From positions 1-23,128 of IMG/VR virus record IMGVR_UViG_3300025133_000615: a DNA stretch of 23,128 bases. One strand, 5' to 3'. A program made the translations under genes and the position numbers. The stretch is from a virus. Shown here in pieces: positions 5,201 through 21,530 of this stretch (position 1 is its first letter; each line of letters opens with the position of its first letter). The notes beneath the pieces are model-generated. The model had not been told where the DNA came from, did no database searches, and saw only the letters and a list, made by a program, of their open reading frames with translations.

Positions 5201-8037
5201 TTAGTGCCCATACTGCCGACAGCACTGCACCAAATCTGACTCTTTTCGACATGTCGACCGACCTGCCTGAAAACTCTGTTATGGGTATGGGTGGCGAGAA
5301 TCTAAATATCTCACTGGATAGTGCCTACTATGACAGTTATCAAGACCTCGATTTACGATTTACTTTTAACACCCTTGGTCAAACTGATTCGTTGAGTCTC
5401 AGTTATCCTCGCTTTGACACGGCTGCGCCGAGCACCATGTCGGGAACGGAGGTTAGTTTTGCCTATGTTACACTGAGTTCATCTCAGGCCACTGCGTACT
5501 TACCTGACCGTGCACAGTTTCGGATTACTTCTTCCCTTTTAGATATTATGGAATCACATCTTGTCCCCTTCAACGACGACTTCGGCTCTTACGTTGGACT
5601 GCCGTCGCAGGATCAAGTGAGATTGCAGACTAACCCTTATGTTAGTCGCTTCACTCGGCCCGTGATGTCAAGTCTCAACCCACTGTTAACTTATATGCAC
5701 GCCGGTCAAACGGAGATCATCAGGGAGGAAATCGAAACTCAACTCTTTCCGAGCATGTTTGCAGGTCTTACCAAAGCCATGTTCACCTATATTAGCAAAA
5801 ACGGAATCTTTGATGCGCCTACAGTCCGCTCCCTCCAATTGTTCAAAGATAACACCAACTGTCCCCCTGAGCTAGCGGCAGATCTTTTAGACGCAAATGG
5901 GATTTTAGAGCAAGTGAAGGCCGAATTCTTAGAGTCAGCCTGTTTTGATGAAATGCCTTTGGATATCAAAATTCGTTATGCAACGATGTTATCCTTATTT
6001 TATAGTCTGATTCAGGTCGAACTTGCTGAGTTAGTTATCAAGAACATTTTTGTTTTTAGCGCCTTCAATGTCGATGAATTGATGGAAAAGCCAGTTATAG
6101 CTCAATTCATCGCGACGCAAGTACGCAACGATGTGCTCACTAAATTACAACGTCGTCCTCGGGTACGTCAAGCCATTATAGAATATTATAATTTCAAGAT
6201 GGCTCGTCCGTCGACAGCCTCACAAGGCGGACTCTTAGACTATAATGACCAAGTTGTCTTTCCGATTGGAACGACCTTTAGCACAGTTAATTGGGATGCC
6301 CTGGTAGAATATCTAGTAAGTCAGCGCATTCATTGGTCGAAGACGCCTGTAGCGAACGTATTGCGCATGGCCCGGGCAGACTCCAGTTTTAGAAAGAGTT
6401 TTGACGAGGCATTTGTCCAGGATATTTTAGGCTTCGGCACCAGCCTTAGTTGGGACCCCCCCGATATCGCAGACGCCTTTTCAACCAAATTAGTATCGCG
6501 CACAAAGGGGTCTCCCCTCTCCTATGGAACACTATTAATAGAAAGGGTTGTAGCCTGGGCCGGTATCCAAGGTACGAATGCTCCACCTGCTCTGGAACCA
6601 ACGCGAGACTCCGGAGGCGAAATGGAACTCAGCCTATTTCGGAACAACTTTTTCTATGGCTCCACCTCGGGCCCATATCTGGAAGGTACAATGCCACCCG
6701 CCCTCTCCGATTACCAGGATTTCTCCTTCGTGGATATAAGAGTAGAATATCGATTGGTATACTATCTACCGTCGACTGTCTACGACCCTCTCTCGGCCCT
6801 CGGCCCCACCGGCCAGGAAGTCCTGCAACTCAATTTGGGTGAGCATGGCCATGGCACCGAATTGGGAATGGAAAACTATACCTCTCAAATAACGGATCGC
6901 TTATGGGCGACTGACCCCAATAATACCAATCCGGAGTTGGCCTCAAGCCCAGCCGGCGGCCATGGTGGTCTGGTACGAGATATCCTCCGCAATGGAACCG
7001 CCACATTATTTGAGTATGAAGATGGGGCCCCAGCGGACGGGGGCATTCAATATGGAATCGGCCCCACTGGACAAGAGCTTATCAGGGTGAAAATCGCTGA
7101 CTTCGATAATATGCTCACTAGGAAACAACTTCACCCCCAAAACATGGAGACTCTACGTACTCAAATCTTCAGCCCCGAGTATATGGAAGATGGGATACAA
7201 ACCACCAACTCGCGACTAGCCCGCAAACTTGAGGCCCAAAAGATTGCGAAGGATCCCATGTATAAGAAGATCTTTAGCGAAACCTTTAATCAAGAATTCA
7301 TTACAATGGTTCCGGTCTATGAAAACTTCTACCTCACTAATCGATACTTTGGAAAGATTGAGACAGTCTTTGATTCGACCAAAAACTTTATCATTCAAGC
7401 GTTTATCGATGTCGTCACCGGAAAAGATCCGAGACCCCCGGTTGGTAACGAACGACCGAATGCCGCCGCAGCTGTGCGTAATAGCGCAGGCCCCGATTTC
7501 GCCGCCCAGTTCGAAGGCCTCGGACGAGACTTCATTCTCAAGATGCTCATTGAAACACCTATTATGATTTTGAAGGGTCTGGCGGAAATGATCGATCCTC
7601 ACGTGGCGATATGGAAAATAGTCCGCAACGCAACAGGAATGGCTTTCGACGAAATTGCCAAAGCTATGGATGCTAGTGGAGTTCTCCAGGCGGTAGATGA
7701 AGCAATCGAAGAAGCCCCAGGCGTCGACCCATTCGGGATGAGAGGCGCTGATCTCATCGCCCTTATGCTGTGTCTCTTAGACTTCGGCATGACTCAAGCT
7801 ATCATGGATGATCCGGCAACTCAAAACGTTCCCGAAGATATCATAAATAATATTTTACCCCGAATGTCTGTCGAGGGGATTGACTTTACTGGAACCTTTA
7901 GTGGCATGCTAATGATTCCCCCATTGCCTTTTGGCATCCTGTATATCTTACTTGATCTCTTGAAGAAACACCTCGCCGAGGAACTAACCAGTGACGATTC
8001 CGCACTTTCTGGGGAAGAAAGTTTGGCGGAGTGTTAA
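2281..8037 (+). CDS. Giant (1918 aa) baseplate/tail structural protein of unknown role
   Basis: A single uninterrupted 1918-residue frame. The ATG follows the previous TAA by 6 nt and has no Shine-Dalgarno-like sequence, only an A-rich 'CTAAAAAATC', so translation may depend on coupling. There is no recognisable enzymatic motif. Visible parts: a Met-rich stretch near residues 317-342; an amphipathic helical region near 539-585 ('ILKSIIDGLRNAVLEIMKEL'); a conserved-looking 'NFECPDKAGFIDNP' near 751-764; helical segments near 1150-1270; 'MILKGLAEMIDPHVAI' near 1762-1778; and one strongly hydrophobic segment near 1876-1894 ('MLMIPPLPFGILYILLDLL') just before an acidic C-terminus. The ECPD and LKGLAEMIDPH motifs resemble very large virion proteins I recall from other large phages, without an assigned function. 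Position between the spike-like gene and gp25 points to the baseplate or the tail-tube end. A tape-measure role is less likely, because the protein lacks the usual long uniform coiled coil and sits inside the baseplate cluster. Confidence 0.7.
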   Translation: MAESITGPKFRSRTPGIPFFKDDKYTVRIEIAPKINSQSEFQTQYEILRNKAVDHFIMHYYPELWPGVNDALGSIPTHAEYQDLYDAVRSTVYDATNVTGFYQPVAPPVAGRSFIVATYDPSTSVDAIRRSLKRSTFGGQSASYYFPSYQDSEGNNFLRGMPPMGPVIEYYNSIQEKGGITGGGSQSTFVVGSMMENQDIINNGLLAFAMQLAAYPGGMNSNLDMTFLQMDVQQFLNLFIRTLVNQFSTQKEVREFDEADTLTIFFGGYADDPNSVAISGMEYLVVDESPATETMAVGYLTNMSYNSSFKDPLTLAMLRNYEDTLEGMMQMQGPFAGNPMMMDGEQFSFTTFAKSLGPGALGPTDQNWEEFDFITPIVNQTAEEVEGYAKAAIEAGLPVDTKSLSDGIEVALTSKEIRELREKVLNNPELAKKVFAEQKAKSLKAGINVSKKLGRILENGPMGFVKKNSPLDMVFRQFGIQEVAKEAFRCLTFGLAPELARINSAVQKALTNQAGSIYLPPPEQPAASISKPDIDLEMFKPFSFTGDIWKQILKSIIDGLRNAVLEIMKELANVLHELCDFNNPFAEDFGAQDITDFLPSEPNIYGANDGSSALQGMADRMGVPRATIYQYLRDLSSILSSMEICYLFTDPSQVTDELLKRIVVYNSTYDNEYVKTVLTNRNNIMAFFANLATIVDVTQLCDEIANALYELNQDDICLTEGDLADALERQNIDSLLDLMENGLQLELPPVNFECPDKAGFIDNPLFSRAVPETLNMTTELVEIQFMNSTQAALNVLLEPSVTAGPSLGLATMAALSSSTSGASDPQSETTQGEANLELLDTIATKFQDFSGVLTTALEGEACAEALGEKLEPIKAGTEAIIEVFNSGEFLEAMQNIGDTFSNLSSSIFDAAQGGKTPRVTYAFPANYTSNFYNFLPALGPTWENDHVDSGGVDDDGNIIYVPAVGQTRVVAGGFSAHTADSTAPNLTLFDMSTDLPENSVMGMGGENLNISLDSAYYDSYQDLDLRFTFNTLGQTDSLSLSYPRFDTAAPSTMSGTEVSFAYVTLSSSQATAYLPDRAQFRITSSLLDIMESHLVPFNDDFGSYVGLPSQDQVRLQTNPYVSRFTRPVMSSLNPLLTYMHAGQTEIIREEIETQLFPSMFAGLTKAMFTYISKNGIFDAPTVRSLQLFKDNTNCPPELAADLLDANGILEQVKAEFLESACFDEMPLDIKIRYATMLSLFYSLIQVELAELVIKNIFVFSAFNVDELMEKPVIAQFIATQVRNDVLTKLQRRPRVRQAIIEYYNFKMARPSTASQGGLLDYNDQVVFPIGTTFSTVNWDALVEYLVSQRIHWSKTPVANVLRMARADSSFRKSFDEAFVQDILGFGTSLSWDPPDIADAFSTKLVSRTKGSPLSYGTLLIERVVAWAGIQGTNAPPALEPTRDSGGEMELSLFRNNFFYGSTSGPYLEGTMPPALSDYQDFSFVDIRVEYRLVYYLPSTVYDPLSALGPTGQEVLQLNLGEHGHGTELGMENYTSQITDRLWATDPNNTNPELASSPAGGHGGLVRDILRNGTATLFEYEDGAPADGGIQYGIGPTGQELIRVKIADFDNMLTRKQLHPQNMETLRTQIFSPEYMEDGIQTTNSRLARKLEAQKIAKDPMYKKIFSETFNQEFITMVPVYENFYLTNRYFGKIETVFDSTKNFIIQAFIDVVTGKDPRPPVGNERPNAAAAVRNSAGPDFAAQFEGLGRDFILKMLIETPIMILKGLAEMIDPHVAIWKIVRNATGMAFDEIAKAMDASGVLQAVDEAIEEAPGVDPFGMRGADLIALMLCLLDFGMTQAIMDDPATQNVPEDIINNILPRMSVEGIDFTGTFSGMLMIPPLPFGILYILLDLLKKHLAEELTSDDSALSGEESLAEC

Positions 8038-8063: not shown

Positions 8064-8459
8064 ATGCCATCAGGATTATCTGCTATGTTACCTCTCACAG
8101 TAAGTGAGACGTTTGGAGCGTACAATTTGAATACTAATTTTGCCCAACTGGCCACGCAGAATCTGAAGATGCTGCTGCTTACCAACCCGGGCGAACGAAT
8201 AATGAACCCTCAGTTTGGGGTGGGAATCCGTAGATTCTTTTTTGAAGCTAATGATCCATCGACGTATAACCAAATATCAGAGCGGATTCTGTCACAGGTT
8301 GGCACCTATATGAAATTTCTTAGAGTAGACGACATTGTGTATAACTACGTCGAAAATAATCCGGATCTTTATCCCCACACCGTTTCCATTACTATACAGT
8401 ATACAATTATCCCTCTTCAAATTTCAACTAGTGTATTGATTCCGGTGAACAACAACTAA
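8064..8459 (+). CDS. gp25: Baseplate wedge protein, gp25/GpW family
   Basis: 131 residues, close to T4 gp25 (132). AGGAG 6 nt upstream fixes the start. The family core is clear: 'QNLKMLLLTNPGERIMNPQFG' from about residue 32, followed by 'GIRRFFFEANDP', then a helix ('ISERILSQVGTYM') and a C-terminal beta stretch ('VSITIQYTIIPL'). In T4, P2 (gpW) and type VI secretion (TssE) this protein joins the wedge to the sheath and helps nucleate sheath assembly, with gp6/J as its direct partner. The next gene here is that partner, in the usual order. The TssE-type EPR motif is represented by 'GER'. Identification rests on motif, length and neighbourhood together. Confidence 0.95.
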   Translation: MPSGLSAMLPLTVSETFGAYNLNTNFAQLATQNLKMLLLTNPGERIMNPQFGVGIRRFFFEANDPSTYNQISERILSQVGTYMKFLRVDDIVYNYVENNPDLYPHTVSITIQYTIIPLQISTSVLIPVNNN

Positions 8460-8479: not shown

Positions 8480-10276
8480 ATGGCAAAAAGACTACAACCA
8501 ATTGATTACACCAGTCGCGACTTCGACTCGATCCGTCGCGACCTGGAAAACTTCGCTAAGCGTTATTACGCAGACACCTATAAAGACTTCAACGAAGCAT
8601 CTTTTGGGTCTCTCATGCTTGATACCGTCTCCTATGTGGGAGACATCCTTTCTTTCTACCTTGATTACCAGGCTAACGAAAGCTTCTTAGAAACCGCGGT
8701 CGAATATAATAACGTCATCAAGCTCGCCCGTCAGCTGGGCTATAAGATCGATCGCAATCCATCGTCCTATGGAATCCTTACTTTCTATATTAAGGTACCG
8801 GCGGCCACTACTGGCCCGGGCCCCAATCTGGATCTTGCCCCCACGTTGCGCGCAGGGTCTACTTTCTCATCTACAGGTGGAGGTATGTATTCTCTCCTCC
8901 AGGATGTGGTGTTCGCCACCAGTACTAATCAGGTGGTGGTGGGTACCGTCAATAGTACCACAGGTCTACCGACTAGCTATGTTATTCGGGCCCAGGGTCG
9001 AGCAGTTTCCGGCCGTATGGCATTTCAGAGTGTGGAACTCGAAGAGTTTGAGCGTTTCCGCAAGGTTCAGTTAGATAATGATAATGTAGCCGAAGTCCTT
9101 AGCGTCCTCGATTCCGAAGGCCACCAATATTTCGAGGTGGACAATCTGTCGCAAAACATCATCTTTAAAGCAATTCGTAACACTACTTCGACTCAAGGAA
9201 CTGTGCCTAATATTTTACGAGCCGTCCCGGTGGCTAGGCGTTTTGTGGTGGAATCCGACGGCAGCAAAACGTGGCTACAATTCGGATATGGCTCTGATTC
9301 GGAACTCTCCAGCGAGAGCGTAGTGAATCCAAGTAATCTCATGCTGGAACTAAACGGACGCAATTACATTACTGATGCGGGATTTGATCCTACTAAACTG
9401 ATTTCTAGTGATAAGTTCGGAATCGCGCCGGCAGATACTACATTGCGTATTGGATATCGAATCAACAGCACTCAGGATGTGAATGCCGGCTCCAACACCA
9501 TTGTGACTGTGGCTAACCCTATTGTGAAGTTCGCAGCGCAAGGATCCTTGTCGACCTCGGCCCGGGCCACAGTTCTTAACTCTATTGAAGTGACCAACGA
9601 AGCACCCTTTGTCGGAAGTGTTAGCCTACCCAGTGCAGACGACATCAAGCAAAGAGTTTTTGGATACTTCGCCACCCAGCACCGCGCGGTTACCCCACAG
9701 GATTACAAAGCCATGTGTTATGCGCTTCCGGCTAAATTTGGTGCCGTCCGTGCGGTGAACGTCGTGCGCGACTTTGATGCATTTAAAAGGAACCTGAACC
9801 TCTATGTCATCTCAGAGGACACATCAGGAAAGCTCGTTACCGCTAATCAGACTCTTAAAGATAATCTCAAAAACTGGATCATCAATTATAAGATGATCAA
9901 TGATACAATTGATATTCTGGATGCGAAGATTATTAATTTTGGAATCAAGTATTCGATCACCATTGATTTGAATAGTAGTCGGTTTACGGTTCTCAATGAA
10001 GCCAATAAGAATATTCGCCAGTACTTCTTCCGTAATCGATTTGAGATTGGCGAGCCAATCATGCTCAACGATATCTATCGACAATTGAACAAGGTAGAAG
10101 GTATTGTGGATGTGGTGAATGTAGAAATCGTATCCAAAAATGGAGGTGTGTACTCTCAAAGCGATTTTGATCCCGAAAGAGCCATGTCTCGGGATGCTCG
10201 ACAAATACTCGCAGAGGAAAATACAATCTTTGAGCTGAAATTTCCTAATGTTGATATTATGGGGAGTATAAGGTAA
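8480..10276 (+). CDS. gp6: Baseplate wedge protein, gp6 / baseplate J-like family
   Basis: 598 residues (T4 gp6 is 660). The N-terminus 'IDYTSRDFDSIRRDL' and 'DTVSYVGDILSFYLDYQANES' are hallmark gp6-like segments of T4-type phages (residues about 8-75). The J-like core lies near residues 382-430, with 'DDIKQRVFGYFATQHRAVT' and 'DYKAMCYALPAKFGAVRAVN'. The C-terminal domain near 527-560 contains 'IMLNDIYRQLNKVEGIVDV', a dimerisation-type region in the family. In T4, gp6 forms the inner ring that ties the six wedges together and rearranges when the sheath contracts; it binds gp25, encoded just upstream. The stop TAA at 10274-10276 abuts the next ATG at 10277, so the following gene is likely translationally coupled. 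Two copies of the 10-mer palindrome GGCCCGGGCC fall inside this gene. Confidence 0.92.
   Translation: MAKRLQPIDYTSRDFDSIRRDLENFAKRYYADTYKDFNEASFGSLMLDTVSYVGDILSFYLDYQANESFLETAVEYNNVIKLARQLGYKIDRNPSSYGILTFYIKVPAATTGPGPNLDLAPTLRAGSTFSSTGGGMYSLLQDVVFATSTNQVVVGTVNSTTGLPTSYVIRAQGRAVSGRMAFQSVELEEFERFRKVQLDNDNVAEVLSVLDSEGHQYFEVDNLSQNIIFKAIRNTTSTQGTVPNILRAVPVARRFVVESDGSKTWLQFGYGSDSELSSESVVNPSNLMLELNGRNYITDAGFDPTKLISSDKFGIAPADTTLRIGYRINSTQDVNAGSNTIVTVANPIVKFAAQGSLSTSARATVLNSIEVTNEAPFVGSVSLPSADDIKQRVFGYFATQHRAVTPQDYKAMCYALPAKFGAVRAVNVVRDFDAFKRNLNLYVISEDTSGKLVTANQTLKDNLKNWIINYKMINDTIDILDAKIINFGIKYSITIDLNSSRFTVLNEANKNIRQYFFRNRFEIGEPIMLNDIYRQLNKVEGIVDVVNVEIVSKNGGVYSQSDFDPERAMSRDARQILAEENTIFELKFPNVDIMGSIR
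10261..10266 (+). promoter_or_regulatory. Ribosome-binding site inside the gp6 3' end for the DNRLRE-like gene
   Basis: GGGGAG lies 10 nt before the ATG at 10277, with AAGG also present 3 nt before it at 10270-10273. Both are inside the last codons of the gp6-like gene, consistent with coupled translation. Confidence 0.55.
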
Positions 10277-11827
10277 ATGGCCATCTTTCGATTCACGGCG
10301 AGTGCCGACACTACTATTACTAATGCATTCAAAGCAGACCTTACGTTACGGGGCACCGGCTCTAATATGGGCTATGCCGACTCGGTGGAGATCTTTTCCA
10401 TCGCCGGCCAACTCTCATCGTCAACTGCCGGCTCATCGCAGGAGCTTTCTCGCGCTCTGATTAAGTTTCCTATTGCTGATATCTCGGCCGCCCGCACAGC
10501 CGGCACACTTCCGGCTTCCGGTAATGTCTCCTTCTTTTTGCGTATGTATAATGCTCAAACCCCCTGGACTCTGCCGCAGAACTTTACTCTAAATGTGCTT
10601 CCGGTTACTCGTGACTGGCAAGAGGGCACCGGCCTAGACATGGACAACTATAATGACCTGGGTGAAGCAAACTGGATGTCAGCCAGCACGAGCGCGGGAT
10701 GGACTAACGTCGGTGGAGACTATAATATCGCCACACCCGGAAACATGTATACTGTCACGTTTCCCTTAGGTTGGGAAGATATCGAGCTTGATATTAGCGG
10801 CTTAGTGGAACAATGGATCGCCGGCCCGGGCGCGGGTGGAATTGAGAACTATGGCGTGGGCGTGCACCTAACTTCCAGCGAGGAAGCATATTTTTCAGGC
10901 TCCGGCGACGCGGATTCCGGGAGTCTTATTAACAATCGTACCGGATCTACTCAATCTTATTATACTAAGAAGTTCTTCGCTCGTTCCACTGAGTTCTTTT
11001 TCAAGCGCCCGGTTATTGAAGCGCGCTGGGACTCAACCGTCAAAGACCAACGAGGTCAATTCTATTTTTCAAGCTCCTTTGCGCTCCCTCCCGAAAATCT
11101 TAACACCATATATTATTACAATTATGTGCGCGGCCGCCTGCGACAACTTCCCTCGGTGGGAAATGATCCGCTCTATGTTTCTTTCTATTCGAGTTCCAAC
11201 GGCGAACCAACTGGCTCTAAGCTAGCACTTCAGGCTGGAGGTGGCGTAGTGGCCACGGGCGATCTAAATGCCACAAGCGCAGCATCTGCAGTGAACGGTA
11301 TTTGGGCGGTCTCTGCTTCCCTTACGGGTGGTGCTACTCCCTTACAGGCAGTCCACGATGTTTGGCACTTTGGAGGAACCGAGTACCATACTGGCTCTAT
11401 CTATCCGAGCGCCATGCCTAAATATGGCAGCGCCCCCACCTTCAACTATAACACCAATATACGTAATTTGCGTAAGAGCTATAGTATAAAAGAAACGGCG
11501 CGCTTCCGTACGTTTGTGAGAGATAAGTACTGGAACCCGACCATCTATGTGAAAGCGACTGCCAACAATCCCACAGAAATTATCAACAGTGCGTCTTATT
11601 CCATCTACCGCGTGGTGGATGATATGACAGTAATTGCTTTCGGGACAGGAAGTAATGACAAGAATTGTACCTATCTTTCATATGATGTGAGCGGCAATTA
11701 TTTTGATCTCGATATTTCTCTCTTAGAGCGAGGTTATATGTATGGGATTAAATTTGCTTATTATAATGATAGTATAGGAAGTTGGATGGAGCAACCGGAA
11801 ACGTTCAAATTTCGAGTTGAAGAATAA
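10277..11827 (+). CDS. Virion protein with N-terminal DNRLRE-like beta-sandwich
   Basis: 516 residues, starting on the base after the gp6-like stop. Residues about 1-225 read like a DNRLRE/CBM-type beta-sandwich: an opening 'ASADTTITNAF', 'SRALIKFPIADISAA', 'FFLRMYNAQ', 'VTRDWQEGTG', and 'ELDISGLVEQWIAG' before 'NYGVGVHLTSSEEAYF'. A short segment 'YYTKKFFARSTEFFFKRPVIEARW' (about 222-250) follows, then a beta-rich C-terminal half of about 265 residues that I do not recognise. DNRLRE-type domains are usually extracellular, stalk-like or carbohydrate-associated. In a phage they fit a baseplate-peripheral or fibre-attachment protein. Its position directly after gp6 corresponds to the slot used by gpI/gp7-type or gp8-type wedge proteins, but no homology to those was seen here. 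No catalytic motif, signal peptide or membrane helix is visible. Confidence 0.72.
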   Translation: MAIFRFTASADTTITNAFKADLTLRGTGSNMGYADSVEIFSIAGQLSSSTAGSSQELSRALIKFPIADISAARTAGTLPASGNVSFFLRMYNAQTPWTLPQNFTLNVLPVTRDWQEGTGLDMDNYNDLGEANWMSASTSAGWTNVGGDYNIATPGNMYTVTFPLGWEDIELDISGLVEQWIAGPGAGGIENYGVGVHLTSSEEAYFSGSGDADSGSLINNRTGSTQSYYTKKFFARSTEFFFKRPVIEARWDSTVKDQRGQFYFSSSFALPPENLNTIYYYNYVRGRLRQLPSVGNDPLYVSFYSSSNGEPTGSKLALQAGGGVVATGDLNATSAASAVNGIWAVSASLTGGATPLQAVHDVWHFGGTEYHTGSIYPSAMPKYGSAPTFNYNTNIRNLRKSYSIKETARFRTFVRDKYWNPTIYVKATANNPTEIINSASYSIYRVVDDMTVIAFGTGSNDKNCTYLSYDVSGNYFDLDISLLERGYMYGIKFAYYNDSIGSWMEQPETFKFRVEE

Positions 11828-11834
11828 TTAATAC

Positions 11835-14800
11835 ATGTCCCTCAAAAACTATTTCGCAATAGCCGAACGAGTAAACTCTGTTTCCGGGCTTACTGGTCAG
11901 GAGATCGGTGGCGAAGTGGAATCCGTGGGATACCACGAACAGGACATTAAATTTGAACAGAGAATGATCCCGCGGGTTGACTTCTCCAAACCAGAAAACT
12001 TTGCTCGATATGGACTGGCCACGGAGTATTACGACGGAGCGCTTAAACGAATTTATGGATCCTTTCCCTATGATGGCTCTCGCCAGGAAAGATTAGAGTG
12101 GGAAAATGAATCCTTAGATATCGACTTGTATATCTATGAGAATCTCTATCCGCGTACCAATGGTTATATCATCTTCTCAGCCGAGGGCTGGGGAACAGGC
12201 AACATGGCCGATGGCTATGGCTCTTCCTCTACCAATGAATATATTCACTTCTACGGGGGGCCGCATGCTAATGATACTGGCTTTACTCCGTATGCTACGA
12301 AGTTCACCGGCTCCAACTATTACGAACCAGCCAAAAACCGCGAGAGCAACCTCAAATACGACATTGCCGATAATGGAGTGAGTGTAGAGTTCTGGCTCAA
12401 GAAGACAGAGTTCATTCCCGGCCTTACCCGTAAAGAGGTGATTTTTGATCTGTGGAATGGTCGACCCTCCTCCTCCGCGGATTATGGCCGATTGCGCATT
12501 CAGCTTACCGGAGCAACATCTGGCCTGAATCCATTCCGGGTCACCCTCCTGTCTGGAACTACGGGCGTCTACGACATGAGCGTTGGAGATGCTACCTTTA
12601 CGAGTGCGTCGGTCGCGGATGATAAATGGCACCACTATGGCTTTACATTCAAGTCAGCCTCAGCGGGACTGCAGACGCGCTTCTATGTGGATGGTGAACT
12701 CAACAATGAACTGATCACTGGCTCGGGCTTCCAAGAGGTTACAGGAGCGCTCCAAGCTTATATCGGCGCACTCATCGCAGCTCCTTCAGCTAGTACGGCT
12801 CTGGCCGGCTACGGCAAGATGTCCGCATCCCTCGATGAGTTCCGATATTGGAAAACGCAACGCAGTTCCAAGGGCATCGGACGCTATTGGTTCACTCAGG
12901 TGGGCGGCGGTACCAATACCGACCCCGAACCCTTTGTAGATTCGATTGGAGATGTGAACACACTTCTTGGCGTTTACTTCAAATTCAACGAAGGGATCAC
13001 CGGAGTCACTAGCACTGATCGAACAGTTTTAGATTATTCCGGTCGTATCACCAATGGTAGTTGGACCGGCTATACACCTTCTTCGCGAAACACGGGCTCG
13101 GCCATTGTTATCTCCGCAGCTGCAATCAAGGAATATAAAGACCCGATCATCTATAACTTTCATCCTGCAGTTGTGGCCCTGTCATCTTCTCTGGAAATTT
13201 CTGGCTCTGATTATGATGCCGGCAACGCAGCGAACATTTACAATTCCATCCCGCAGTGGATTCGAGAAGAAGATGAAGAAGGTCAAAACAATGCACGTTA
13301 TCTTACTCAGATCATGGCGAGCTACTTTGATGACTTTCAGTTAAAAGCTCGTGCTCTCACTGATATCAAATCAGTTGAGTATCCTAGCGGGAGTCAAAAA
13401 CCTCTTCCGTTTGCCGAGCGCCTTCTTAACTCTCATGGTTTTGTTGCGCCCGATATATTCCTCGACGCTGATATCTTAGAAAAACTGGCCGACCGGAGTG
13501 AATTTAGGGTTTACGAAAAGACGCTGAACGATATTAAAAACACAATCTATCAGAATATCTACAACAATCTTTCTTATATCTATAAGACTAAGGGGACGGA
13601 AAAGTCTTTCCGCAACCTTATTCGTTGCTTTGGTATCGATGACGAGTTGGTCAAGATCAATCTGTATGCTAACGATGTTGAAGCAGAGATGCGAAGCAAT
13701 CGAAAGAACGTCGCAGTTCCGGACAAATTCGTTAACTTCAACACCGAGACCAATCTCCAAGGAACGGTGGTTCAGTTCCAGAATCCGAGCAACACCACCA
13801 ATACTGCAGGGTACATTTCGGGGTCCGGAAATCTTCGTAACGGTTATGCATTCACCCTTGAAGCCGAGGTATTGTTTCCACAGAAGGTTTCGGCTCAGTC
13901 CCCGGGCTATCAGAATACTAACATAATCAGTGCAAGTCTCTTCGGTGTGCATGGGAACGCTGGTGTCGACGAAGCTAGCCCGCGCTGGCCTAGTTACGCA
14001 GGTAACGAAGACGTCGTTAACTTCCAGGTATATGCTGTCCGTGATGAGGTGGAGTCTGACAATGTGCGTTTCATGCTCACGGGTACGTCGGGACTCACAA
14101 CAGTGGTCCCACGACTGTCTTCTCAGCTCTTCGAAGATGTCTATACGGATATGAACTGGAACTTAGCTGTTCGGGTACGCCCCGAGAGCTATCCTTATAC
14201 TAATGTGGCGGGCGTTACTCCTACGAATTATGTGGTTGAGCTGCATGGTATCAATGTTGATGCGGGCGTTGTCCTCAACGAATTTACTGTTACAGGTTCG
14301 CTGCTTTCCCCGGGCGCTGGCCGTGAGTATGCTTTCGTTACTGGCTCTCGCCGAGTCTTTGCTGGTGCTCACCGGACTAACTTTACTGGCGCCCTCCGCA
14401 CCCCTAGTGATGTAAAACTCAACTCCTGCCGCTACTGGCTTACCTACCTAGACGATGCAACCCTCGCCGCCCATGGTCATGACACAGCTAATGCAGGAAC
14501 GCTCAATCCTCACTTCTATGCTTTCCCCTTCAACTCATCAGCTTCTTTCGGAGAGGTGGTGGATTTCGATACTCTGGCTTTCAACTGGGAGTTTAGCACT
14601 AACACTGCTTCTAATGCTTCAGGACAGTTTACCGTCGCTGATGAATCATCTGGTTCTAACGCAGTGGCGACTGCCACGAATGGGTGGCTTGGCTCTCTCC
14701 TCAATCAACAATACTCTGCGCGCGCCTTTAACTTCGCACCTTCCTCGACAACGGCCATTGACAAGGATTATGTGATCGCTGCCCGCCAGACGCTTCCCGA

Positions 14801-17800
14801 AAATATCTACTCAACCGATATGGTGACAGTTTATAATCAGGCGGAACAGGATGTATTCCAGATCGACTCCCGGCCTATCAATTACTACTTTGCATTTGAA
14901 AAGAGCTTGTATCAAAATATTTCGGAAGAAATTCTGAATTACTTCGCCACTCTTAAGGATTTGAATACCCTCATCGGTGCACCAGTTAATCGTTATCGCC
15001 AAGAATATAAGGGCCTCAAGTTCCTTCGCGAAAAGTTCTTTGCCACGGTGGCCAATGACACTATTGACTTTGATAAGTTCTACGAATTCTATAAGTGGTT
15101 CGACTCAGCGCTGACTGTAATGTTGCAACAGCTCGTCCCTGCGTCCACCGACTTTGCCTCCAATGTTCGTACAATGATTGAAAGTCATGTGTTAGAGAGA
15201 AGCAAATATCAGAGTAAGTTTCCCTTCCTGGAAAGCAAGTCCTCGCCTCTTATTGGCGCAACATCTGGTACGGGTAACGACTCCACTGCCATGAATTCTC
15301 CCGAGGACTTCCCTGCAGGTACTAGCTTCTTTTCTAACACAGCTTATACCCGACGACAGATTGGATCCTCCAATGTGGTCCGTACCAAGCAATGGCAGCG
15401 CCTCCATGCTCCGCCGGACGGCGCTCAAGATAAGAACACCTATTGGTGGCGCCTCATGGCGGACCGAGCTAAAAATCCAACCCTCACGGGATCGTCAGCT
15501 GCAACTAACAATGCCCGCCAGGAACTCCTCGCCGCTATTGATCGCTCACACCGACGAGAAGCCAATGCACCGGTAAGATTTGGCGCCGAAGGTAGCGTGA
15601 CCCTAGGAGGCATTGGTTTCCACCCCAATAAGCGACCTTCGTTTGTCATGGATGCCACCGCTCCCGCGGGCAACGTCGTCCCTGGAACTAATCTACCAGT
15701 TAATATTATGCTGTCGTTCCAAGACGACGTAGAACAGCTCATCGACACCAAGGACATTTATTATCCCAGCTTGAAGCAGCGCCTAGGCTTCGGAATCAAT
15801 CCTGATATTAACCACGGCGCCCCGGGAGGTGCAAATAAGAGTTCCACAAAGAATCGGATGGACGGAAATGTCTTGGCTCCTTTCAGCCTCTACAGCTCCT
15901 CTGTGAAAACTGGTTTCAACCAAGAAGTTATTTCCATGTATCACTCCGGGGTGACGATCACCAATCTCCACCATGACATTGTCCACACTAATGATGTCCC
16001 GATGCAGGGGCCCTTTACTGAAAAATATGTGGGCGGTTGGCAATATCGTCATCAACCTTTGAATACTTACAACGCTTCTAATCCGGGTACTAACAATCTG
16101 GATGATAGATCTACCCGCGCCGAAGGCTGGATGCTCAAGCTAGGCCTTTGTGAGGCAGCTGTCTCGCGTGGCAGTGGCGCTCTAGGCATCGTAGGTCCCC
16201 AATATCCCGATGCTTCCTCCGTTTCCGGTTCTGCCCCCAAGGGTTATCTTTTTGATCGCCCCAAGGCAAACTTGGCCCGTGTAGAGTACGCCAAGCGTCC
16301 GGTGAACATTCGAAATATCAAGATGACCACGGGTTCCACCATTATTGGGAATTATGAGAAAAACTATCAGGTGGTTCAGACCGTCGGCCGAGAACTAAAT
16401 GATCCTTATTTCAACGATCAGTCCTTTAATTTCGCCCCTTATCCCGAAACACTGGCTACACGCGGCCGTTTCCCGCTTGGCCCCTCCACCGCTCCCTTGT
16501 TTGTTCCAAAGTCTATATTGTTCGGGGGGGCTGGATATCTCGAAACTGATACCGTCCCGGCAACTGACTGGGAGACCAAGATAGGCGGCGCCGGCATGTC
16601 GGCGAAAGCCTTTAGTGTTTCTATGTGGGTAAACCCAACGTCGATGACAGCTGGGGACTACATGTGGTATGTGGGGGGCACGGGGGGTACCAGCGGAAGA
16701 GAAATGGCGGTTTCATCGACCGGCGTCCGGAAGATCCTTTTTCGATCGGGCCCGAGCACCACGTGGGCACGTTCTAACTCTTTGACACTGGGAGTCTGGC
16801 AACACCTCGTTTTCACTTTCGCCGGCGGCGACGTCGCCACTGGCGCGTGGTATATTGATGGCGCGAATGCCACCAACGCCGTCAATAGTGGAAATGACCC
16901 CCAGTCATTGGCTGGGGTACCGGTGCGAATCGGTGGAAAATCCGGAGGGCCCGGTTTCGATGGCTATATGTGTGATGTTGCTGTCTGGAACACCGAACTG
17001 AGCCCTTCCGAGGTGACAGAGATTTATAACGGGGGCTCTCGACTTAAGTTGACAAACTCTACGGTGGCGGGCAATTTGGTCTCCTGGTGGCTTCTCGGCC
17101 TGGACGACCCCACCATCCCCGGAAATCTACGAGACGAGACGGGCTTCGCTCCTGCAAAAACTTACAACATGCTTCCGGCCGATGTCACGAAGGAATCACC
17201 CCCAGCACCCGACCTGGCTCCCCCTAATCCTTATAACACTCCTAACCCTGGCGGCGCGCTTAACTACGCCCTCCCCACCCGAACCGGCAGCAATTCCAAT
17301 GCTAGCATCTTTGTCAACCGTTTTGCAGGCAGCGGCTATGAGGTCATGTCCAGAGGATATATGGACCCGGCGCACGAAGCCTTGTCGATCTATAATGCAT
17401 TGCCTTATCATAACCTCTCTATCATTGATTATGGCCTTTCGGGCTCTGCGTCTGTAGACGCGACTCTTCAAAGAACAATCAGAGTTCAGGATCAGATCAA
17501 CAAGGTTCGTGGCCTCGATCAGCGCGCAACCCTACACTGTGGACAGTTCGGCCACGACGCCGCGTACGGCTCTGTGCCGGCTTCTACCTACGTGACCACC
17601 CCATCATGGCATAAGACGAATAGAAACCCACGTAAACGCATTGTGAGCGCCTCTGGAGGCTATATCACGGGGACTGTCTACGACAACCTCTATGTGCAGC
17701 ACCAGATCCCTCGTTCCACGCAACAGTATTCTTGGATCACTGCTTCCTTGGCCTCTGGTTCAACTATTTTTGGGCTGGAGTCTCCCAGCTGTACCACAGC

Positions 17801-20800
17801 AAATAGTTTGACACAATTGGTCTCGGGAGCTTCTTATGTTTACAGTGCGGTTCCCCACACTACCTCTTTTACTGCCTTAAATTTGGTCGTTCAAGACTCC
17901 CTCAATACCAGTACTCACATAGCGGGCACATCTTCGGTCCAGCGTTTGGTGGACATCTCACGAGCCCAGGCTACTAATGCACTGAACCTTGCTCGCAACG
18001 GGGCTTATGGATACCCTAGCTGGAAGCAAATTCGAGTGGGCGAGAGCCCTATGGCCCGGGCATTGCGGAAGGCTAATAAGATTGGTGTGGTATTACCACC
18101 AGCTCCCGTAGCCAAGGTCTCTACTGTATACTCCGGGAGCACCCTAGTGGGCAGCACGGTTCTGGGATCCGAACCTGGTATAGGCTTTGGACCTTTTGTT
18201 GATTATACTGAAAGACCCGTCGTCAGTCACGCGCGACCGATCTACTTTACTTTTCAAGATAACACAGCGAATTCAAATCCTGCCAACAATATCGCTCTCA
18301 AGGTGAGCTATGGCAATATTTTAGATTACTTTACAAACGAGGGGCTTAACAATCGCCTCAATTTAGGCAAAGTTGTGGATGATGGCCATGCTTACAATAC
18401 TGTTGCTCATTTTGCAGTGGACAGTGGACTCAGTTTGGTAGCCAATTATGGCCAGCGTGTATACCCCGCTGCAATAAATGCCTATAGTGATGCGGTGCGA
18501 AGCCGAACAGAATTTAGCATCAAGAATATTTGGAATGATCTGAGGCCTATTCGAAGCTCTGAGGGCGGTCTCACAGGTTCCATGGGATTCGCCACATCCA
18601 GTCAAAGTATCTGGCCTGGAGATGGCCACAATAATTACACCACCACTTCTTCCATCGTGGGAATCAATGACGGTGCGGGGGAACTCCTCGCCAATTATAC
18701 TCGCTATGTGAAAAACGCTGTGGATGAATATAATGATATTGATGAGACGCGCACCTTCGGCCCGGTTTATAGTATGCCCATATCCTTGGGGTCTGCAAGT
18801 GCCACTTTCGCACGCAACTGCGTTGTCGCTGGTGATGCAAAATTCGTAGCGCCCATACAATCTGGCCGCGTTCCCTATTATGAATCTACCACCTACAATG
18901 AGCGGATGCGATTAGCTGCCAAGGACTATTCTATCATTCCAGAGTTTAGGGTCAGCGAACTTATTCCCACTTATATAAATGAGAAAGAGGGCGACTTCTT
19001 AGCTCAAATTGACAATATTTTCTCCCTTACCGGGGCTTCTCTTAGTAGTGCAGACCCCAATTTCTATAGGGTGTACACCAATGCAGATTTCCTTAAGTAC
19101 TTTAGCGTGGTGGACAATGACCTACACGAGCAACGCTCTGGTGATCTCACAATCACCCGTGATAAACTTAGTCTAAGTTGTAAGGCTTTTCTCAAGCTCC
19201 TGCCTTATAAGGGATTCTTTCCCATTGAAAGAAGCGCTGAGCTGGCCTCCCTATTCTCCGCCTCGATGTGCGCTAGTACTAATATAGCCGACGGCCTTCT
19301 GGCTCCCCGGAAGTCAATCCGCCGGATTCCGATGGAAATGACATATGCCCCCGGGATCTTATTCAATACTATTAAATCTGGTATGGGTGTTTCCCACTTT
19401 TGTTTTGTGAATAATCAAAGCCCGAAGATGATTAAATCTCTCAAGCCAGTCAACAAGGATTATGCCACCACCCCCGGCATGGCATATCAGGACCTTCCCG
19501 AAGGGTTTTTGGTCAATATCCGTGATGCCGCAATCGTCAGCGCCGCATCGTCGTCATGGAATAACGGCTATGTCATCAACAAGGTTCCATTTGAAACCAT
19601 TTACCGCCCCCAAGGATTCTTTAATCCAAGAAACCTGGGCGCCCTTACGGGCACGGTTACCGACGGTTATGCATGGCTTTACGACACCGCACCATCGCAG
19701 AGTAACCGCCCGGGCATTACTTCTTTTCTTCAAAACGATGGAACGATCGCGGTGGCGGGTACAAAGCAGTGTGCTGCCGACCTGCAAAACTTTCGAGTCG
19801 ATAAAACCTATACCCTGGCTATAGATAACTTCCTGTGTGCGACACAAGACATTTTTGTAGATAAGTTTTCATCTTTTGTGTCCGCCCGGGAAGATAATTT
19901 TGGAGAAGCGACTTCTGGCTCAGTATACACCATGACGGTGAAAATGTCACGAACTGCGCTTGAGGCCGTGGGGGCTGCAACGCCCTCTAGCGACCCGGAT
20001 CGAGCCGCCTTTGACATGTACCGTCGCCAGTCAGCATTTGGCGCCCCCATTGCGGGGACTCCTCCCGCAGGCACCACACTCCAGGGCGTAAGCTATATGC
20101 ACGTTACTCCCCCTTACTTCGATGGCCCTGCGTACGCGAAACTGGTTTATACGGCCTCCTATGATGGCCGGCCTTCGCTGAGTGAGATTTTGGGAGGACT
20201 GCAGGTTAGTTATCTGCGCGATGCTGGAAGCGGATCGCAAACGTATGTCACAGCCTCCGGAGGGGATAACACCAAATATGGAGAGCCATCACCGGGAATT
20301 ATGCATCTAGATAGCGTTTATAACTTTACTGAGGCCGTGCCTGAAATTGTCTCGGGGTCGAGAGAACAAAAATTCCGCTGGATGATCCAGTCTAAGTTTG
20401 AGACTCCAATTCTAAATGTTCAGAGTGCGAGTGTGCGCGGAGGATGGTCACCAGCTCCCCCGGTCTCTTATATAACGTCCGCCTCAGTTTATACTGGCGA
20501 AGCGAATGCGGCCACCCTCAAAACATCCGGCCTCTGGCATCAATATGCGACGGTGCCTAGTAAGTCTAAAGAGGGGGTCTTTATCACCATTGAAGACCAA
20601 CAAGCTTTCAAGGCCCCCGAATCGCTCCCACGGGGCGCGGCAAAGAAAACACCAAACTCCTTGGCCCAATTGGTAGGGTTTGATCGAGGGATCAGCAAGA
20701 GAGTGGGTAGTGTAAAGAAAGAATTTAAATGGGAAGAGGCTGTTGTGGCAGTTCCCTTTGAGGTAGTGGAAAACCAACGCAAGTTTATTAGCCTCACTAA

Positions 20801-21530
20801 GCACACCAATTCCAAGAGCTATCATAAATTAGCACAAGCAATGTCGAAATATAACTTTCCTCCTCGCCTAGATTTCACTAAGTTTGATACAGTCGACCCG
20901 ATCTTGATGTATGTTTTTGAATTCAGTGCGGCTATGAGCCAACAGGATGTGGCCGATATTTGGCAAAACCTTTTACCCGATATCGGCTCCAAATTTGACA
21001 CATCTACTGTGATCGTGGAAGAAAGGGAACTACTCGATGTGTTGCTAGAGAGCCACCGCGAGGTACAGTGGATGGTCTTCAAGGTGAAGAAACGCGTCGG
21101 AATGGACTTTGAACGACAGCGCCGCGCGCAACAGAGTTCAAATACCGGGTCACTTCCAACTTATATTCACGAACCCTATAGTTACAACTGGCCGTATGAC
21201 TATTGCTCTTTGGTAGAGTTAGCTCAAATTGAAGAAAGCGTGCAATGGTCCTCCCGAGATCTCCACACCGAAGAGCCAGTAGTGATTGATTATGAGCCGC
21301 CCGAGGCGCGCCAACCAGGAAGTACCCCGGCGCCATCGGCTGCTCCTACTCCACTCAACATTGTGGGCATGGTAGCCAATATTGTACCCCCTTTGATGGT
21401 GCCTCCTGAACTAGACCTCCAAGCGCCAGGGGAAGTGGAGACACCGCCCACCTTCAATATCCAAAAGGCAAAGCCCCCTAGGCGTAAAGCTAAATCCAAG
21501 AGGCGTAAAGGAAAGGGTAAAAAGAGGTAA
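11835..21530 (+). CDS. Giant (3231 aa) LamG-domain baseplate/adhesion protein
   Basis: One continuous 3231-residue frame, three times T4 gp7. The ATG is 8 nt after the previous TAA and lacks a good Shine-Dalgarno (only GAAG 12 nt away). Order of parts: LamG 1, about residues 183-345 ('KWHHYGFTF', 'FYVDGELNN', 'SLDEFRYWK'); helical region with 'YIYKTKGTEKSFRNLIRCFG' at about 581-601, resembling the KGT motif of gpI/gp7-type wedge proteins; a probable degenerate concanavalin-like domain at about 670-890 ('YAFTLEAEV', 'KLNSCRYWLTYLDD'); helical region 1006-1132; a conserved-looking 'MQGPFTEKYVGG' near 1390; LamG 2, about 1590-1735 ('WQHLVFTF', 'WYIDGAN', 'DVAVWNTELSPSEVTEIYNGG'); a Pro/Asn linker near 1785-1807; long beta-rich regions; 'ADIWQNLLPD' and 'VQWMVFKVKKR' near 3025-3092; and a Lys/Arg-rich end. 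LamG folds commonly bind glycans. A combined wedge and receptor-binding surface role is inferred. No transmembrane segment or protease motif was seen. Confidence 0.75.
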   Translation: MSLKNYFAIAERVNSVSGLTGQEIGGEVESVGYHEQDIKFEQRMIPRVDFSKPENFARYGLATEYYDGALKRIYGSFPYDGSRQERLEWENESLDIDLYIYENLYPRTNGYIIFSAEGWGTGNMADGYGSSSTNEYIHFYGGPHANDTGFTPYATKFTGSNYYEPAKNRESNLKYDIADNGVSVEFWLKKTEFIPGLTRKEVIFDLWNGRPSSSADYGRLRIQLTGATSGLNPFRVTLLSGTTGVYDMSVGDATFTSASVADDKWHHYGFTFKSASAGLQTRFYVDGELNNELITGSGFQEVTGALQAYIGALIAAPSASTALAGYGKMSASLDEFRYWKTQRSSKGIGRYWFTQVGGGTNTDPEPFVDSIGDVNTLLGVYFKFNEGITGVTSTDRTVLDYSGRITNGSWTGYTPSSRNTGSAIVISAAAIKEYKDPIIYNFHPAVVALSSSLEISGSDYDAGNAANIYNSIPQWIREEDEEGQNNARYLTQIMASYFDDFQLKARALTDIKSVEYPSGSQKPLPFAERLLNSHGFVAPDIFLDADILEKLADRSEFRVYEKTLNDIKNTIYQNIYNNLSYIYKTKGTEKSFRNLIRCFGIDDELVKINLYANDVEAEMRSNRKNVAVPDKFVNFNTETNLQGTVVQFQNPSNTTNTAGYISGSGNLRNGYAFTLEAEVLFPQKVSAQSPGYQNTNIISASLFGVHGNAGVDEASPRWPSYAGNEDVVNFQVYAVRDEVESDNVRFMLTGTSGLTTVVPRLSSQLFEDVYTDMNWNLAVRVRPESYPYTNVAGVTPTNYVVELHGINVDAGVVLNEFTVTGSLLSPGAGREYAFVTGSRRVFAGAHRTNFTGALRTPSDVKLNSCRYWLTYLDDATLAAHGHDTANAGTLNPHFYAFPFNSSASFGEVVDFDTLAFNWEFSTNTASNASGQFTVADESSGSNAVATATNGWLGSLLNQQYSARAFNFAPSSTTAIDKDYVIAARQTLPENIYSTDMVTVYNQAEQDVFQIDSRPINYYFAFEKSLYQNISEEILNYFATLKDLNTLIGAPVNRYRQEYKGLKFLREKFFATVANDTIDFDKFYEFYKWFDSALTVMLQQLVPASTDFASNVRTMIESHVLERSKYQSKFPFLESKSSPLIGATSGTGNDSTAMNSPEDFPAGTSFFSNTAYTRRQIGSSNVVRTKQWQRLHAPPDGAQDKNTYWWRLMADRAKNPTLTGSSAATNNARQELLAAIDRSHRREANAPVRFGAEGSVTLGGIGFHPNKRPSFVMDATAPAGNVVPGTNLPVNIMLSFQDDVEQLIDTKDIYYPSLKQRLGFGINPDINHGAPGGANKSSTKNRMDGNVLAPFSLYSSSVKTGFNQEVISMYHSGVTITNLHHDIVHTNDVPMQGPFTEKYVGGWQYRHQPLNTYNASNPGTNNLDDRSTRAEGWMLKLGLCEAAVSRGSGALGIVGPQYPDASSVSGSAPKGYLFDRPKANLARVEYAKRPVNIRNIKMTTGSTIIGNYEKNYQVVQTVGRELNDPYFNDQSFNFAPYPETLATRGRFPLGPSTAPLFVPKSILFGGAGYLETDTVPATDWETKIGGAGMSAKAFSVSMWVNPTSMTAGDYMWYVGGTGGTSGREMAVSSTGVRKILFRSGPSTTWARSNSLTLGVWQHLVFTFAGGDVATGAWYIDGANATNAVNSGNDPQSLAGVPVRIGGKSGGPGFDGYMCDVAVWNTELSPSEVTEIYNGGSRLKLTNSTVAGNLVSWWLLGLDDPTIPGNLRDETGFAPAKTYNMLPADVTKESPPAPDLAPPNPYNTPNPGGALNYALPTRTGSNSNASIFVNRFAGSGYEVMSRGYMDPAHEALSIYNALPYHNLSIIDYGLSGSASVDATLQRTIRVQDQINKVRGLDQRATLHCGQFGHDAAYGSVPASTYVTTPSWHKTNRNPRKRIVSASGGYITGTVYDNLYVQHQIPRSTQQYSWITASLASGSTIFGLESPSCTTANSLTQLVSGASYVYSAVPHTTSFTALNLVVQDSLNTSTHIAGTSSVQRLVDISRAQATNALNLARNGAYGYPSWKQIRVGESPMARALRKANKIGVVLPPAPVAKVSTVYSGSTLVGSTVLGSEPGIGFGPFVDYTERPVVSHARPIYFTFQDNTANSNPANNIALKVSYGNILDYFTNEGLNNRLNLGKVVDDGHAYNTVAHFAVDSGLSLVANYGQRVYPAAINAYSDAVRSRTEFSIKNIWNDLRPIRSSEGGLTGSMGFATSSQSIWPGDGHNNYTTTSSIVGINDGAGELLANYTRYVKNAVDEYNDIDETRTFGPVYSMPISLGSASATFARNCVVAGDAKFVAPIQSGRVPYYESTTYNERMRLAAKDYSIIPEFRVSELIPTYINEKEGDFLAQIDNIFSLTGASLSSADPNFYRVYTNADFLKYFSVVDNDLHEQRSGDLTITRDKLSLSCKAFLKLLPYKGFFPIERSAELASLFSASMCASTNIADGLLAPRKSIRRIPMEMTYAPGILFNTIKSGMGVSHFCFVNNQSPKMIKSLKPVNKDYATTPGMAYQDLPEGFLVNIRDAAIVSAASSSWNNGYVINKVPFETIYRPQGFFNPRNLGALTGTVTDGYAWLYDTAPSQSNRPGITSFLQNDGTIAVAGTKQCAADLQNFRVDKTYTLAIDNFLCATQDIFVDKFSSFVSAREDNFGEATSGSVYTMTVKMSRTALEAVGAATPSSDPDRAAFDMYRRQSAFGAPIAGTPPAGTTLQGVSYMHVTPPYFDGPAYAKLVYTASYDGRPSLSEILGGLQVSYLRDAGSGSQTYVTASGGDNTKYGEPSPGIMHLDSVYNFTEAVPEIVSGSREQKFRWMIQSKFETPILNVQSASVRGGWSPAPPVSYITSASVYTGEANAATLKTSGLWHQYATVPSKSKEGVFITIEDQQAFKAPESLPRGAAKKTPNSLAQLVGFDRGISKRVGSVKKEFKWEEAVVAVPFEVVENQRKFISLTKHTNSKSYHKLAQAMSKYNFPPRLDFTKFDTVDPILMYVFEFSAAMSQQDVADIWQNLLPDIGSKFDTSTVIVEERELLDVLLESHREVQWMVFKVKKRVGMDFERQRRAQQSSNTGSLPTYIHEPYSYNWPYDYCSLVELAQIEESVQWSSRDLHTEEPVVIDYEPPEARQPGSTPAPSAAPTPLNIVGMVANIVPPLMVPPELDLQAPGEVETPPTFNIQKAKPPRRKAKSKRRKGKGKKR
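16500..17255 (+). other. LamG cassette with Pro-rich linker inside the giant gene
   Basis: This in-frame stretch encodes LamG domain 2 and its trailing Pro/Asn-rich linker ('ESPPAPDLAPPNPYNTPNPG'). Its base use differs from its surroundings: G runs of 7, 6 and 6 occur at 16524-16530, 16673-16678 and 16682-16687, whereas G runs of six or more were otherwise seen only at 12255-12260. The boundaries are estimates from domain shape and linker position. It may be a swapped-in module. Confidence 0.5.
21480..21510 (+). repeat. Direct repeat AGGCGTAAAG, two copies 21 nt apart
   Basis: Identical 10-mers at 21480-21489 and 21501-21510 encode 'RRK' each time in the same frame (spacing 21 nt, seven codons). 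The pair suggests the basic tail grew by local duplication. Confidence 0.7.
21521..21527 (+). promoter_or_regulatory. Ribosome-binding site for the 323-aa gene, inside the giant gene's 3' end
   Basis: AAAGAGG ends 6 nt before the ATG at 21534 and lies in the last two Lys/Arg codons plus one base of the upstream gene. Coding sequence and initiation signal overlap. Confidence 0.75.

Follow-up and report, generated by a model that had tools for sequence, protein, structure and literature searches.

A giant marine phage protein that probably joins a gp7/gpI-type baseplate-wedge core to lectin-like LamG domains

Wedge proteins of the tail tip usually measure ~180-1,000 residues. Subunits of the gp7 type bind two copies of gp6 and carry the periphery (PMC6300606, PMC10457771), and the loop V129-E151 of wedge gp32 contributes to anchoring the long tail fibre in cyanophage A-1(L) (PMC10966104). 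In phage Vp4, the wedge protein Gp119, which has carbohydrate-binding modules, binds bacterial cells, whereas a module-free homologue does not; as far as the authors of that work were aware, such modules had not been reported before in myophages (PMC11406892). Additionally, VrlC has been proposed as the replacement for gp7 in cyano- and pelagimyophages (PMC7029224). This report concerns a 3231-residue protein encoded by the IMG/VR virus fragment IMGVR_UViG_3300025133_000615, the whole of which (23,128 bases) is called the window below. The gene is likely to specify a peripheral baseplate-wedge subunit of the T4 gp7/P2 gpI/XM1 gp17/A-1(L) gp32 class, from a T4-type marine myophage and enlarged by lectin-like modules.

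The giant gene, its locus and its family

A preliminary description of the window had given the giant protein 3231 residues, about three times the size of T4 gp7, and both points were borne out: the frame starts with ATG, contains no internal stop and encodes 3.1 times the 1032 aa of T4 gp7 (Table 1). The gene had also been placed just downstream of gp25 and gp6. Homologues of both do lie upstream, in the order of a baseplate operon, but the gene for a 516-aa protein intervenes. An isolate for comparison is Flavobacterium phage vB_FspM_immuto, in which gene 161 (QQO92079.1, 'hypothetical protein', 1265 aa) likewise lies after gp25 and gp6, separated from them by two small genes. The gp25 and gp6 proteins of immuto match those of the window (E 9e-11 and 2e-86, respectively), and the first 119 residues of the 516-aa protein are weakly similar to immuto 159, which has the equivalent position. 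The gp6/gpJ-type protein is the presumed partner of the giant protein's core.

Table 1. Positions of the baseplate genes and of the parts of the giant protein within the window
Feature	Position	Strand	Evidence or remark
gp25-type sheath initiator/wedge protein	8064..8459	+	PF04965, E 8e-12
gp6/gpJ-type wedge protein	8480..10276	+	phrog_219, E 3e-24; PF04865 over cut-off
516-aa protein, between gp6 and the giant ORF	10277..11827	+	
3231-aa ORF, putative gp7/gpI-type wedge core, three LamG domains and long C-terminal part	11835..21530	+	
LamG1, residues 108-432, pentraxin/LNS-type fold, before the core	12156..13130	+	AlphaFold model, VIA-align Z 17-18
Core, first half, residues 460-626: NSIPxWIxEED motif, helices, KGT motif, first strand	13212..13712	+	
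KGT motif YIYKTKGTEKSFRNLIRCFG, residues 581-600	13575..13634	+	
LamG2, residues 639-987, between the core halves	13749..14795	+	VIA-align Z ~16 (model 638-987)
Core, second half, residues 1006-1130, conserved LVPAS motif	14850..15224	+	hhalign to immuto core, E 1.4e-10
LamG3, residues 1578-1734, variable module	16566..17036	+	Pfam; presence differs among relatives

Two further large frames precede gp25. The first (2-1237, +), open at its 5' end and 411 aa long, matches phrog_37890 (2e-27) and the endolysin family phrog_90 (8e-12) with its C-terminal half, and its sequence suggests that it is probably a tail-associated lysin or hub protein. The second (2281-8037, +) encodes 1918 aa and is kept in relatives at ~1050-2090 aa; no family match to it exceeded the cut-off, a TarH-like match at 1061-1167 staying below it (E 1e-4). 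At the other end of the locus, the giant protein closes with a strongly basic stretch, RRKAKSKRRKGKGKKR (21432-21527, +), within its poorly conserved last part. The 644 C-terminal residues before the variable tail matched no known family, structure or isolate phage.

Relatives of the giant protein are common in viral contigs, one scan having found 72 loci and a profile scan with the core at least 488 stretches. In four long relatives (98-165 kb) a gp23 capsid protein of the T4 type was found, so that these are T4-type phages rather than free injection systems. A relative outside this setting was seen at L352:8675-13354, in a MAG labelled as a candidate division WOR-3 chromosome (CP070664.1), where a relative of the LamG/KGT core and a D12 DNA adenine methyltransferase domain are fused in one 1559-aa ORF among non-phage genes; it may be either a remnant or an assembly chimera.

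The KGT core and its kinship with gp7 and gpI

The KGT-type motif anticipated near residues 581-601 was located at 581-600. Of 50 non-redundant relatives, 49 retain KGT, and K586, G587, R593, N594, R597, C598 and G600 are invariant in the 50-sequence alignment, T588 being conserved in at least 90 %. The surrounding positions, Y-N-N...K-x-K-G...K-x-x-R-N-x-x-R-C-x-G, are likewise invariant, and residues 501-600, the KGT block, form the most conserved part of the protein (69 %). The pattern [YFHL]xxKGTxxx[FALIV]R occurs once in the giant protein and nowhere in the 314,050 residues of the other ORFs from the same loci. The core to which the motif belongs is also present in the smaller immuto 161, which matches residues 460-612 directly (E 1e-7) and, by profile comparison, both the KGT half (E 5.6e-17) and the second half of the core. 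Because these halves are close together in immuto and parted by LamG2 in the window protein, LamG2 is nested inside the core, and it shows where a wedge fold tolerates a large insertion.

Based on profile comparisons, the core resembles both gpI and gp7. Whole P2 gpI-type profiles aligned with it with their KGT helices in register (P 0.02-0.03). After removal of a variable loop from the immuto core, the gpI profile gave P 2e-4, with none of 137 column shuffles reaching the score, a value that is optimistic in that the trimming was chosen by the analyst. The P values given here all refer to single comparisons. On its own the gpI evidence is weak, since a sliding-window scan of the giant protein with gpI alone ranked the KGT block below trivial matches of 9-11 columns. 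For gp7, the narrow T4 profile gave the KGT block as its top four sliding windows in the whole protein; hhalign of this narrow profile against the immuto core failed, as it did for gpI, the positive control. The match to the core improved when distant gp7 relatives were added to the profile. The resulting diverse gp7 profile picked the KGT block from all 3231 residues with the KG in register (score 36.6, P 1.3e-4), windows not reaching the core scoring ~19 or less, and against residues 451-640 it scored 30.6, which none of 200 column shuffles reached. A second motif, NSIPxWIxEED, aligns with MMPDSYL of gp7, and the order of the two motifs is the same in both proteins. The helix - KG(T/I) - helix motif of the gp7/gpI superfamily is thereby present, aligned with KGT of gpI and with KGI or RSKGT of gp7. 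The latter form comes from distant gp7-like proteins in viral contigs (L434-L443; 26-35 % to T4-type gp7), several of which read RSKGT where T4 has STKGI and thus bridge the gp7 and gpI motifs.

Fold was compared through a model of the immuto core predicted with low confidence (pLDDT 58). Its best VIA match was the A-1(L) wedge gp32 (8kea; Z 5.6 over 103 residues), at a Z that a common arrangement can also give. Lower VIA values to this low-confidence model (Z 3.3-3.8) were obtained with wedge proteins of a Streptomyces CIS (9gtp), P1 (9ay5), T4 (gp7, 5iv5) and phi812 (9euk). The wedge-protein matches cover model residues 160-364 (from 46 in P1), most other matches lying at 58-136. If the ends of the T4 gp7 range are ungapped, they would pair K183 with K738, the KGI lysine, and P352 with P885 of HPVGF, a correspondence read from the ranges rather than from a printed alignment. 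Foldseek with the immuto core model gave no significant PDB hit (best E 2), two contractile-system wedge proteins being among the top seven. The significant BFVD matches were all to uncharacterised or unnamed viral proteins.

Curated family models did not recognise the core, and Pfam, PHROGs and PDB sequence searches with it returned noise or unrelated names. Against Pfam Tail_P2_I (PF09684), no protein of the window matched over the cut-off, and two of 42 relatives reached E 0.085 at best. The preliminary reading of KGT as a gpI/gp7-type wedge motif is supported by the sequence profiles, the smaller homologue, synteny, the low-confidence structural match and the single register that they share, but the protein is not placed in Pfam Tail_P2_I. 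As several weak-to-moderate tests agree, the gp7/gpI reading is moderately well supported. The gp7 class of the core is well supported but not proven, and the giant protein probably works like, and belongs to, the wider gp7/gpI wedge superfamily. A separate gpI or gp7 elsewhere would have spoken against this; nine relatives of 90-165 kb contained none that Tail_P2_I or the T4 gp7 profile could find, and no neighbour gene scored as gp7/gpI, a weak negative in that both models are blind to divergent members and the window's record is a fragment. The regions of cyanophage S-PM2 that were inspected carried no annotated gp7. For this group of T4-type phages, the wedge reading helps account for the missing gp7, and it offers a likely function for giant marine phage proteins that form a common but uncharacterised family.

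The LamG domains and the role of the protein

The two to three concanavalin-like domains of the preliminary description can now be set at three. Membership of the LamG/concanavalin-like class follows from a Pfam Laminin_G_3 match (E 5e-29, in two stretches) together with fold. In an AlphaFold model of residues 1-1195 the LamG domains were well predicted and the core poorly, and the model confirmed LamG/pentraxin folds for the first two (Z 16-18). Structural neighbours of LamG1 are pentraxins, PAPP-A and the neurexin LNS domain (Z up to ~18), while those of LamG2 are the lectin-like domains of dimethylformamidase and N-acetyl-(R)-beta-phenylalanine acylase.

At the level of sequence, the lectin-like domains share a chain with the wedge-type core, and LamG2 is inserted in it. 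To that extent the earlier idea of a fusion between wedge and host recognition stands, its second half being the conjectural one. That the protein might make up much of the baseplate skirt, as was also suggested, is likewise conjecture. In the proposed arrangement, residues ~460-626 and 1006-1130 would form the gp7-like core and pack with two copies of the gp6-like neighbour, LamG1 would precede the core, and LamG3 and the further copies of relatives would hang on the chain after it. LamG2 probably sits at the position equivalent to the fibre-anchoring loop of A-1(L) gp32, and probably occupies or extends the fibre-docking site, because the VIA offset (model 161 to chain 85) puts that loop after the first core strand, the point at which LamG2 is inserted. 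The LamG domains may stand out from the rim to bind glycans of the host surface, or to hold fibres; contact would then travel by way of the wedge itself towards the sheath initiator. Host recognition by LamG domains of a wedge is argued here by analogy, with one experimental precedent in Vp4 Gp119. A broader suggestion, put forward tentatively and on the unlikely side, is that across a large group of T4-type marine phages the gp7 wedge subunit is itself the host-recognition platform. A single polypeptide, up to 4274 aa long and present in six copies per baseplate if the gp7 pattern holds, would in that case acquire and lose LamG cassettes, and receptor contact would act on the wedge core directly, with no separate fibre or peripheral protein as go-between. 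The question of whether lectin domains that are part of the wedge can trigger the baseplate thereby becomes open to direct test.

A wedge protein could instead carry LamG domains that are structural, clamping neighbouring wedges or docking receptor-binding fibres without host binding, and this is a real possibility, if one held at less than even weight. In its favour, almost every relative covers LamG1 and the LamG2 region, which is what structural parts would show; A-1(L) uses the equivalent loop to dock a fibre, and relatives have large proteins downstream that could be fibres. The LamG3-type modules, in contrast, fit surface recognition better. LamG3 itself is uncovered in about half of the relatives and, gaps aside, no block is less conserved than its region (13 % identity, 36 % aligned). 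Relatives have between zero and about five or six copies of this type, the highest count coming from L062, as counted with a model that misses diverged copies such as LamG2.

It is distinctly unlikely that the protein lies outside the gp7/gpI class altogether, as a large tail-fibre or adhesin-like baseplate protein with a coincidental KGT and a true gp7 unrecognised elsewhere. The failure of family models to match would suit such a protein, as would the frequency of LamG domains in large tail proteins and the other giant structural proteins of S-PM2; however, two separate motifs of the core follow the gp7 order, the profile and structural matches share one register, the core is near-invariant and the gene is syntenic with gp25-gp6, all of which favour a wedge subunit. 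The suspicion that the length is an assembly artefact, with separate genes joined by error, can be rejected, since ~40 complete relatives from independent assemblies nearly all have single ORFs of 2782-4274 aa, the homologue being broken into two ORFs in L060:10001-22337 (near residue 550-610) and L035:10001-21788 (near residue 2500), through either gene fission or sequencing error. Cleavage of the wedge-like protein into several proteins after translation is possible.

Comparison with known systems

One of the nearest known proteins is immuto 161, which has both halves of the KGT core and the same position after gp25 and gp6; unlike the window protein, its core is not interrupted by LamG2, it has 40 % of the size, and it was never annotated as a wedge protein. 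VrlC resembles the giant protein in being a very large baseplate-region protein of T4-type marine phages without a recognisable gp7, but the one VrlC sequence compared, that of S-PM2, lacks KGT and had no detectable similarity to the giant-protein family profiles. Vp4 baseplate wedge 3, Gp119 (831 aa, Herelleviridae), is likewise a wedge protein bearing carbohydrate-binding modules; it differs in being of the A511 gp105 type with CBM folds, in that a KGT core is not shown there, and in its much smaller size.

Among members of the proposed class, A-1(L) gp32 (8kea) offers the best structural match of the low-confidence core model (Z 5.6) and carries, at the presumed insertion point, the loop by which the long tail fibre is anchored (PMC10966104), but it is a chain of 191 aa without lectin domains. 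P2 gpI and pyocin R2 PA0619 (Pfam Tail_P2_I) share the KGT helix-turn-helix in register, while differing in length (~176 aa) and in a Pfam model that misses the window protein. T4 gp7 agrees in the order of the KG motif and the upstream motif and in lying after gp25/gp6, and its core too is surrounded by additional domains and has a stretch separating KGI from HPVGF; it differs in having KGI instead of KGT, one third of the size and weak sequence similarity only. T4 gp7 is not known to carry LamG domains. Compared with T4 gp7 and the minimal gpI, the window protein is set apart by its nested LamG2, its N-terminal LamG1, its variable LamG3-type modules and a C-terminal part of ~1,500 residues.
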